Of a stretch of 37,588 nt of DNA, positions 25,688-29,227 are shown piece by piece. The position numbers were made by a program, and so were the translations under genes. The DNA comes from Phascolarctobacterium sp. (GTDB taxonomy: Bacteria > Bacillota > Negativicutes > Acidaminococcales > Acidaminococcaceae), in contig JAGAPX010000044.1 of the NCBI GenBank assembly GCA_017623055.1, positions 1 to 37,588 on the forward strand. Direction: 5' to 3'. Numbering within the stretch: the stretch's first letter is position 1; every line of letters begins with the position of its first letter. Under the pieces are notes generated by a model that was given only the letters and a program-made list of their open reading frames with translations, was not told the DNA's origin and ran no database searches.

Positions 25688-26848
25688 TTAAATATGTTCT
25701 GTTGAATATATCGCAGGGGACTTTCCTGCTTCTGTAATGTGGGGAGTGAGAATCATAATTACTTCTGTTTTGGCTTTACGTTTGGTACGATTTTTAAATA
25801 GCTCGCCAAAGAGGGGAATGTTGGAGAGCAGGGGAACCTTTTGGATACTTTTTTGTTCTTCTTCGTTAATGAGTCCACCGATTATAAGTGTTTCGCCCGT
25901 AAGCATACGAACATTGGTATCTGCTGTGCGGCTGGTAATGCGATAATTTTTCATTTCGCTTACCAAGGTTGGCGTGCTCACTTCTGTGTGGACAGTGGCA
26001 GTAACCATTTTACCATCACCACTTACGATAGGCGTATAAGTTAATTTTATTCCGGCATCTAAATATTCAGTAGTGGTATAGCTTCCTGTACTATTATGTT
26101 TTTCAGTTTGCACGGGAATGTGGTCACCGATGAATATACTTGCCTCTTTGCCAGGAATTGTGATGATGCTGGGGGTAGCAAGTATTTTAGCCTTGCCTTT
26201 GGCAAGAAGAGCGTTTAGATTGGCATTAAATTTAAAGGAGTATCCTCGCCAAAACTTAAAATTGCCGCCAAAATCTTGACCATTATTTTCGTCATAGTCA
26301 TTATTATTTTGGAGTTCTTCGTTTTGGGGAATCTTGTCCCAATTCCAACTTACACCTAAATTTTTACTGTCCTCTTTATTGAGGGCGATAATCTTGGCTT
26401 CTAAGGTTACTTGCTTAGTGGGTACGTCTAGGGAATTGACTGCTTTAAGCAAACGCTTCCCTTCACTAGGAGAACCTTTGAATAAGATGGCATTGGTAAT
26501 ACCATCAACAGAAATTCTATTACTTCCAAAAATATCCTTTAAGGATTTGGCAAGGTCTCGTGCTCGTGCGTAGTTAAGCTTCACAATGAGCAAATCCTCT
26601 CTTTTTTGAAGTGATTTCTGTTGTTCTGGTATTAAGGTGATGTCATTATGGTTGTAATGACTGGTAGCTTGGGGAGCTGTAAAAGGGTTGCGCACTTCAT
26701 TTTCCACTCGTGCTGGCGCAACGAAGCCTTCCTGCAAATTTTGACCTTGCACCATTGGCAAGGAGCTGCCCCAAATTAAAAGATATGCAAGAAGGGTACT
26801 GCTTAATTTTTTGGGAGTGGTCTTAGGGTAAAAAGTTTGTTTCTTAAT
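25688..26848 (-). CDS. Compact secretin (PilQ/GspD-type outer-membrane pore), probable ATT start
   Basis: Outer-membrane secretin of the type II/IV-pilus family. From ATT 26848 it is 386 aa, much shorter than PilQ (about 700). Layout: a signal peptide (about 1-33; KK start, then LSSTLLAYLLIWGSS), a linker, one N-domain (about 85-140), and the secretin core (about 145-372) with VTLEAKIIALNKEDSKNLGVSW and the VPLLSNIPLFGELF signature at 338-352. It has no AMIN or repeated N domains. No ATG, GTG or TTG occurs in frame upstream of TTG 26761, yet the 29 codons before it encode the signal peptide. ATT 26848 has GAGG (26861-26858) and AAGG (26856-26853) upstream and a promoter with +1 near 26881. 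The alternative, TTG 26761 or ATG 26755, would leave the protein without an export signal. Confidence 0.82.
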   Translation of the reverse strand: MKKQTFYPKTTPKKLSSTLLAYLLIWGSSLPMVQGQNLQEGFVAPARVENEVRNPFTAPQATSHYNHNDITLIPEQQKSLQKREDLLIVKLNYARARDLAKSLKDIFGSNRISVDGITNAILFKGSPSEGKRLLKAVNSLDVPTKQVTLEAKIIALNKEDSKNLGVSWNWDKIPQNEELQNNNDYDENNGQDFGGNFKFWRGYSFKFNANLNALLAKGKAKILATPSIITIPGKEASIFIGDHIPVQTEKHNSTGSYTTTEYLDAGIKLTYTPIVSGDGKMVTATVHTEVSTPTLVSEMKNYRITSRTADTNVRMLTGETLIIGGLINEEEQKSIQKVPLLSNIPLFGELFKNRTKRKAKTEVIMILTPHITEAGKSPAIYSTEHI

Positions 26849-26887
26849 AAAACCTTACCTCTTTTCCAAAAATTAAACTACATCTTA

Positions 26888-26916
26888 ATTTTAAAACAAA
26901 GTTGTCGCACTGGCAA
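26888..26916 (-). promoter_or_regulatory. Promoter of the secretin gene
   Basis: On the minus strand: TTGCCA (26916-26911), 17-base spacer, TAAAAT (26893-26888). It predicts a start near 26881, about 33 bases before the proposed ATT start codon at 26848. Confidence 0.6.
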
Positions 26917-27015: not shown

Positions 27016-28224
27016 GTGATGCCAATTAATTTGGCAGTACAAAATTTTTCGCTCACCAGTTTATCAGGAGAAGTTCAAGTAGTAAAATTTGTTAATGCTT
27101 TATTAGAGGTGGCTGTAAAAGAACGGGCAAGTGATGTTCATATTGAACCCTTGGAGAAAATGACTCGTGTGCGTTTACGCGTTGATGGATTTTTGTGTAC
27201 AGCAGTGGAGGTGCCACGCAATGTTCATAATGCTATCGTAAGCCGCATCAAAATTATTAGTGGTATGGACATTGCTGAAAAGCGTTTACCCCAAGATGGA
27301 CGTGTACAGTTGGAAGTGTTTGAGCGTAAGGTAGACTTGCGTATTTCAACTTTGCCTGTCATTAACGGAGAAAAAGTTGTTATCCGTATTCTTGATAAAT
27401 CACAAACGCTTCTAGAACTAGAGAACCTTGATTTTACAAAAGGTAATCTTGAAATCTATAAACGCCTTATCAATTTGCCTCATGGCATTATTTTACTTAC
27501 AGGACCAACAGGAAGTGGTAAGTCCACCACACTGTATGCTACTCTCCAAAAATTAAATAGTGTAACAAAGAACATAATCACCATTGAAGACCCCATCGAG
27601 CGTACCATCGATGGGATTAACCAAATAGCAGTGAACACTAAAGCAGGCTTGACCTTTGCTACAGGACTGCGTTCCATCGTGCGCCAGGATCCTAATATTA
27701 TTATGGTAGGAGAAATTCGTGACGCTGAAACTGCTCGGATAGCAGTACAAGCAGCTTTGACAGGGCATTTAGTTTTCAGCACTCTGCACACCAATAGTGC
27801 AGTGGGAGCAGTAACTCGCCTGCTTGATATTGGCATTGAACCTTTCCTCTTGGCAGCAGCTTTGCGTGGTGTAGTGGCGCAGCGCTTAGTGCGTAGAATT
27901 TGTATTGATTGTCAAAAACAGTATGAAACTAGCGAGATGGAGCTTACTGCCCTTGGATGTGATACTTGTGAAAGCTTTAAGCTTAACAAGGGGAGCGGTT
28001 GTGAGAATTGTAATCATACTGGTTACAAGGGACGTATTGCAGTACAGGAAGTTTTAGAAATTACACCTGTTCTACAAAAAGCAATAATCCAAGGTGCAGA
28101 GGAAAACGTGCTTTTGAAATTGGCTAGCGATGCTCACTTCACAAGCCTATCAGATGATTGCAGGGAAAAGGTTTTGACGGGGAAAACTTCCGTGGAAGAA
28201 CTTATGCGCATCGCGTATTGCTAA
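27016..28224 (+). CDS. GspE/PilB-type secretion/pilus assembly ATPase (short form)
   Basis: Hexameric cytoplasmic ATPase of the type II secretion/type IV pilus family. It has 402 aa, lacking the N-terminal ~150 aa (N1 domain) of full PilB (about 560). Visible: RASDVHIEP (about 37-45) in the N2 domain, Walker A GPTGSGKST (163-171), an Asp box (IITIEDPIE), Walker B IMVGEIRDAETA (229-240) and a His box (STLHTNSA). The zinc tetracysteine is C296/C299 and C329/C332, and an additional CDTC pair is at 315/318. GTG 27016, 10 bases after GGAGG (27001-27005), is preferred to ATG 27019. It is divergent from the secretin gene and 13 bases from pilT. No pilC or pilin gene is adjacent. Confidence 0.9.
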   Translation: MMPINLAVQNFSLTSLSGEVQVVKFVNALLEVAVKERASDVHIEPLEKMTRVRLRVDGFLCTAVEVPRNVHNAIVSRIKIISGMDIAEKRLPQDGRVQLEVFERKVDLRISTLPVINGEKVVIRILDKSQTLLELENLDFTKGNLEIYKRLINLPHGIILLTGPTGSGKSTTLYATLQKLNSVTKNIITIEDPIERTIDGINQIAVNTKAGLTFATGLRSIVRQDPNIIMVGEIRDAETARIAVQAALTGHLVFSTLHTNSAVGAVTRLLDIGIEPFLLAAALRGVVAQRLVRRICIDCQKQYETSEMELTALGCDTCESFKLNKGSGCENCNHTGYKGRIAVQEVLEITPVLQKAIIQGAEENVLLKLASDAHFTSLSDDCREKVLTGKTSVEELMRIAYC

Positions 28225-28237
28225 GGTGGTGATTTAA

Positions 28238-29227
28238 ATGGAACTTTTAGAAGATATATTAACTGAAGCTAGAAAGTTGAAGGCTTCGGATTTACATTTA
28301 ACTGCCAATGAGTTTCTCACCTTACGTATTAATGGCTCGCTAGTGAGAATTAAACTACTCATTACGCAAGAACAGATTGATAATATTACGGCTGCTACCT
28401 TAAATAAAGAACAACTAAAGATTTTACAAGAGGTAGGAGAATTTGACTGTGCCTATATAGATGGCAAAGGATTATCCTATCGTTTGCATGTAGCCAAAAG
28501 TAAGGGAGAGAAAATTTTAACCTTTCGTATCATCAGAGCTAACGTTCCTACTTGTGAGGAGCTGTTTTTGCCTGAGGTAGTGCAAGGTCTTGCAAATCTA
28601 AGGAAAGGGTTAGTTTTAGTTTGTGGTGCTACAGGTTGTGGTAAGAGTACGACCTTGGCAGCTTTGATAGAGAAAATAAATAACGAACGCAAGGTACATA
28701 TTGTCACCTTGGAAGACCCTATAGAATATAAATATGTAAATAAAAAAGCTCTCATTCATCAGCGCGAAGTAGGGAGCGATACCACTTTCTTTGCAAGTGG
28801 TTTACGAAGTGCTTTGCGGCAGGACCCTGATGTAATTTTAGTAGGGGAGTTGCGTGAACGAGAAACCATTGCCGCAACTCTAACTGCTGCTGAAACAGGG
28901 CATTTAGTTTTTGCAACGTTACATACAAATGACGTGACGGGTGCGATAACTAGAATTTTAGATAGCTTCGACGAGGGACGGCAGCTTATTCGTAGTCAAC
29001 TTGCTGAGGTGTTGGAAGCAATTGTCTGCCAAGAGCTTTTGTTAAGGGCAGATGGTAATGATAGGGTGGCAAACTTTGAAGTATTAATTGCTACGCCCGC
29101 ACTGCGTAGTTTAATTCGTGAAGGAAGAACGCATCAGATTGCCAGCTATCTTGTTACCGGTAGACAGCAGGGAATGCTTACGAAAGCAGAGCATCGTAAT
29201 TTTTTAGAAACTCAAGGCATAATTTAA
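28238..29227 (+). CDS. pilT: PilT-type twitching/retraction ATPase
   Basis: Pilus-retraction ATPase family (329 aa; typical PilT about 345). N-terminal: KASDLHLT and LRINGSLVRI (PilT PAS-like domain). Then Walker A GATGCGKST (130-138), Asp box (IVTLEDPIEYKY), Walker B VILVGELRERETIAATLTAAETGHLV, and His box (ATLHTNDV). The C-terminal TPALRSLIREGRTHQI corresponds to the AIRNLIRE retraction motif of PilT, which distinguishes it from PilB. It lacks cysteine pairs. The start has AAGGTGGTG upstream. With the secretin and short PilB it forms an incomplete type IV pilus/transformation gene set. Confidence 0.88.
   Translation: MELLEDILTEARKLKASDLHLTANEFLTLRINGSLVRIKLLITQEQIDNITAATLNKEQLKILQEVGEFDCAYIDGKGLSYRLHVAKSKGEKILTFRIIRANVPTCEELFLPEVVQGLANLRKGLVLVCGATGCGKSTTLAALIEKINNERKVHIVTLEDPIEYKYVNKKALIHQREVGSDTTFFASGLRSALRQDPDVILVGELRERETIAATLTAAETGHLVFATLHTNDVTGAITRILDSFDEGRQLIRSQLAEVLEAIVCQELLLRADGNDRVANFEVLIATPALRSLIREGRTHQIASYLVTGRQQGMLTKAEHRNFLETQGII

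Follow-up and report, generated by a model that had tools for sequence, protein, structure and literature searches.

The window, as we call the whole 37,588-nucleotide stretch of Phascolarctobacterium sp. DNA analysed here, encodes on its minus strand a secretin that probably starts at an ATT codon (26846-26848). We consider it probable that an ancestral ATG became ATT in this lineage and that AUU 26848 initiates the full secretin precursor, signal peptide included, at a reduced rate. Sequence comparison places the start, leaves no canonical alternative that would keep the signal peptide, and reveals purifying selection on the gene together with an otherwise open set of pilus genes.

The secretin gene and its pilus context

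Read from ATT, the gene (25688-26848, minus strand) comprises 386 codons and a stop. Pfam detected a Secretin domain at residues 214-372 (PF00263; E=5.4e-41, 140.4 bits against a cut-off of 27.5) and a Secretin_N domain at residues 88-146 (PF03958; E=3.1e-10), and the protein is 72-76% identical to the secretins of three other Phascolarctobacterium species. It is the sole secretin of the genome. The HofQ (NF010083), PilQ (TIGR02515) and GspD (TIGR02517) models all remain under their curated cut-offs (166.5 bits against 284.35 for PilQ), and the assignment is to the secretin level only. The window protein has in common with HofQ, PilQ and GspD secretins the Secretin domain preceded by one Secretin_N domain, but it lacks an N0/STN domain. 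This domain is also absent from the secretins of the other species of the genus (L031-L033) and from a member of another genus (L014), and present in those of the two sister genera tested (L005 and L013).

The product is best explained as the outer-membrane secretin of a type IV pilus or DNA-uptake machine. Divergent from it lies a gene for a PilB/GspE-type ATPase of 402 aa (27016-28224, plus strand; Pfam T2SSE, E=9.9e-133), for which the best NCBIfam models are GspE and PilB, under cut-off, followed by a pilT-family retraction ATPase (28238-29227, plus strand; TIGR01420, 361.6 bits against a cut-off of 319.1). The first of these ATPases begins near profile position 100 of the GspE model and 175 of the PilB model, without the usual N-terminal region. 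Both adjoining genes are open and, with other pilus genes in the genome, provide a type IV pilus context: contig C6 carries pilC with pilin-like genes, and contig C3 a prepilin-peptidase-like gene with pilN and pilO, all open. Throughout Phascolarctobacterium the secretin gene is isolated and divergent from pilB rather than downstream of a pilus operon.

The part of the secretin after TTG 26761 has no internal stop and differs from the congeners with a dN of 0.15-0.18 and a dS of 1.6-2.5 (near saturation). The resulting dN/dS of about 0.1, in the range found between congeners, indicates purifying selection. Together with the open pilus genes and the lack of a second secretin, this argues against long-standing decay, though a recent damaging change would be compatible with it.

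The start region and its counterparts in congeners

Upstream of the conserved domains the secretin frame reads TAA (26857-26855) GGT TTT ATT (26848-26846) AAG AAA CAA ACT TTT TAC CCT AAG ACC ACT CCC, then AAA AAA TTA AGC AGT ACC CTT CTT GCA TAT CTT TTA ATT TGG, and finally GGC AGC TCC TTG (26761) CCA ATG (26755). Between the in-frame stop TAA (26855-26857, minus strand) and TTG 26761 it contains no ATG, GTG, TTG or CTG, which confirms for the first three what the preliminary description had stated. The TTG (26759-26761, minus strand) is the first canonical in-frame start codon. It is unconserved: the aligned congener codons are TTC, TTC and others that are not starts, and ATG 26755 likewise faces non-start codons.

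The comparison set consists of three further Phascolarctobacterium species, all metagenome-assembled genomes from roe deer gut that carry the label Phascolarctobacterium sp.; the genus in the collections amounts to four species with one genome each. In one of them, G002, the alignment to the window is free of gaps from GTAGTTTAATTTTT up to and including the start, with GAGGTAAGGTTTT-ATT in the window facing GAGGTAAGCCTTC-ATG in G002. A Shine-Dalgarno motif GAGGT (26857-26861, minus strand) lies 8 nt before ATT and is found in all three congeners, where it precedes the ATG by 8 nt (G002), 7 nt (G003) or 9 nt (G001). Of the more distant family members examined, nearly all have an ATG near a signal peptide, and two have TTG as the first canonical codon. 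The ATT thus occupies the orthologue start position, and no ATG, GTG or TTG gives the conserved N-terminus, both of which are expected of a non-canonical start. A regulatory AUU, on the other hand, would be conserved among relatives, and here the congeners have ATG and the other members ATG or TTG. The preliminary description had named ATT 26848 as the start and proposed comparing the 5' ends of orthologues; the gap-free alignment and the common GAGGT bear this out, and the orthologues have their canonical start at this same place with a homologous signal peptide, rather than elsewhere with a different one.

These alignments support ATT 26848 as the ancestral start site. With ATT at that site, the simplest history would be descent from an ATG-started gene through one G-to-T substitution in the window lineage. 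Weak initiation would then be private to the window genome, because the congeners and nearly all examined family members have ATG. Frameshifting or readthrough from an upstream start is ruled out, as the TAA 9 nt before ATT closes the frame and the congeners use a simple ATG. Viral contigs searched for exact matches to the start region gave none.

The region missing from a TTG 26761 product, KKQTFYPKTTPKKLSSTLLAYLLIWGSSLPM (26756-26848, minus strand), was identified by alignment and hydropathy as the signal peptide, with a possible cleavage site VQG|Q shortly 3' of it. It aligns with the congener signal peptides, with which it shares KL(N/S)ST(L/I)L and then a hydrophobic stretch, and the earlier claim that a signal peptide is encoded upstream of TTG 26761 therefore holds. 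Read from ATT, the best 12-residue hydropathy mean is 1.76 and is preceded by five positive charges, the congeners reaching 2.2-2.8; read from TTG 26761 it is 0.17, without any hydrophobic segment. Judged by hydropathy, the N-terminal Sec signal peptide characteristic of the secretin family (a basic n-region followed by a hydrophobic stretch) is accordingly present only from ATT. Secretins need export, and because a TTG-started product would lack a hydrophobic segment it would be useless. The truncation by automatic annotation that had been foreseen is supported in this sense: with a start at TTG 26761 the signal peptide would be lost, and a pore that is exported would be mistaken for a protein of the cytoplasm.

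Signal peptides evolve fast, and the upstream region (24-27 codons, dN/dS 0.6-0.8) is too short and too fast-evolving for its substitution pattern alone to prove that it is coding. It is the KL.ST.L motif and the Shine-Dalgarno motif that carry the argument for a coding upstream region.

Of the promoter TTGCCA-17-TAAAAT claimed earlier, the site itself stands (26888-26916, minus strand; 10/12 matches to a sigma-70-like promoter), and its position is kept in two congeners, G002 and G003, which have TTGCGT-17-TACAAT aligned to it. Shuffled sequences average 0.8 such sites per 400 bases, so that the match by itself is weak evidence of a promoter. Just after this site, in an otherwise conserved leader, the window has an ATG TAG start-stop pair (26878-26883, minus strand); in its place the congeners carry TTG, CTG or no start. 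We detected no special RNA structure at the secretin start, the folding energy being that of shuffled sequence (z 0.04).

Proposed initiation at AUU and competing readings

We envisage that a third-position G-to-T substitution turned the ancestral ATG into ATT in the window lineage, and that ribosomes would still bind at the conserved GAGGT. Initiation with fMet-tRNA at AUU 26848 would then yield the complete precursor of 386 residues, signal peptide included, at a rate lowered by the discrimination of IF3 against AUU. We infer both the use of AUU in the cell and the extent of the drop in expression. Lower secretin synthesis in the window lineage is a likely consequence, because in published reporter assays AUU reaches about 10% of AUG initiation or less: the natural AUU of Staphylococcus aureus cvfC1 is functional, at about 10% of AUG (PMC13009471), and the starts of Listeria rsbW rank ATG > ATA > ATT, the ATT version being barely detected and nearly a loss of function (PMC13068326). 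Repression of non-canonical starts by IF3 has been shown for the GTC of sigR (PMC5472188). The preliminary description's view that AUU keeps translation low agrees with these reporters (PMC13009471, PMC13068326). Its suggestion that low translation would suit a toxic outer-membrane pore does not fit, since the congeners make the same protein from ATG, and low expression to avoid toxicity is for the same reason rejected as a general rule.

Several observations weigh against initiation at AUU as the explanation. The ATT occurs in no other species, which leaves no comparative evidence of selection; the window genome is a metagenome assembly; the five-base GAGGT is not extended, unlike the Shine-Dalgarno sequences of the conserved S. 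aureus AUU and AUA starts, and strong compensation is not apparent; and the ATG-to-ATT change in Listeria rsbW left barely detectable product (PMC13068326).

One unlikely alternative is a mixed-strain artefact or a consensus error, the latter a possibility that the preliminary description had also raised; the real codon at 26848 would then be ATG, and the assembly would have T for G at position 26846. ATT does differ by a single base from the ATG that all three congeners have, and the assembly consists of 46 contigs with an estimated contamination of 2.77%. We screened starts by alignment in 588 reciprocal orthologue pairs, from 1.38 Mb of the window genome and 1.12 Mb of G002, which cover part of the genes. 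A canonical start column is common to 576 of the 588 pairs, which means that the assembly does not produce start-codon differences as a general artefact. The remaining 12 are mostly antisense or shifted frames or pairs with two different canonical starts, and in the window genome only two genes, the secretin and, on contig C13, an amidase-like paralogue, have clearly lost a canonical start. That there is just one other such loss among the pairs compared speaks against the artefact, and the C13 gene is a diverged paralogue with no congener-like ATG to restore. A chance error would also have to strike a start codon, with three bases per gene at risk, which should be improbable at normal consensus quality.

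The amidase-like gene (L070, C13 1764-2345; HWTAG motif) has no ATG, GTG or TTG near its start and shows AAAGGAG followed by ATT ATC where TTG stands in its relatives. Its contig is small, and a paralogue with a canonical start is present on C42.

Equally doubtful is a real damaging mutation, by which the start would be lost, the secretin too scarce for piliation and decay of the gene just beginning. The ATT is private to the window genome, and in Listeria a change of the same type in rsbW, which arose when loss of function was selected for, left hardly any expression (PMC13068326). Set against this, the secretin gene carries no further lesion, its dN/dS is as low as between congeners, and the other examined pilus genes are open as well. 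All of this is weak evidence, as a very recent change would leave no such trace. It is still more improbable that the ATT is fixed and selected, placing synthesis of the sole secretin under IF3 control, a species-specific translational brake on this outer-membrane pore, and limiting piliation or DNA uptake.

Translation from TTG 26761 or ATG 26755 (357 or 355 residues), the outcome expected of automatic annotation, is the least credible reading: these are the first canonical codons in frame and GGGG lies 8-11 nt upstream of TTG, but both codons are unconserved in congeners, the conserved Shine-Dalgarno motif is 95 nt away, and the product, without a hydrophobic signal, could not reach the outer membrane.

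Apparent weak starts in the clade and known systems with such starts

Weak starts appear to be used at infC in this clade, judging from the sequences, a point in favour of AUU initiation at the secretin. The infC of the window genome (L084, C9 near 31143) and of its relatives (L078-L085) lacks a usual start at the expected position. The candidate is ATA, or ATT in P. faecium, at a distance of 9 nt from the preceding GGAGG, a codon choice inferred from this spacing. The codon before the Acidaminococcaceae infC ATA varies (ATT, CTT, ATG, ACG) and is too near the Shine-Dalgarno sequence.

If the secretin ATT is real, it would be another natural replacement of ATG by AUU, a known though rare kind of start, in an envelope-machine gene, and the close relatives that keep ATG would offer a natural comparison. 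Its relevance is modest and concerns annotation and natural variation in start codons.

In Escherichia coli, infC and pcnB (both cited in PMC5472188 and PMC13009471) are AUU-started genes, and the AUU of infC is tied to autoregulation. Like the window secretin, they have AUU as the sole start behind a Shine-Dalgarno sequence, and repression by IF3 is expected in each case; their AUU use is experimentally established, whereas the window ATT is private to one genome and predicted from sequence. The S. aureus cvfC1 (AUU) and ccpN (AUA) genes resemble it in their non-canonical starts, which give about 10% of AUG in reporters, but those starts are conserved across species and have extended Shine-Dalgarno sequences, neither of which is true of the window secretin (PMC13009471). 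The ATG-to-ATT and ATG-to-ATA mutants of Listeria monocytogenes rsbW are likewise single-base changes in one lineage with lower translation expected; they came from laboratory selection for the loss of an antagonist, whereas the window ATT occurs in a natural assembly and in an envelope machine gene (PMC13068326). Finally, the GTC of Streptomyces sigR is a rare start misplaced by annotation, as for the window secretin, but it is conserved within its genus, and its repression by IF3 has been demonstrated (PMC5472188).
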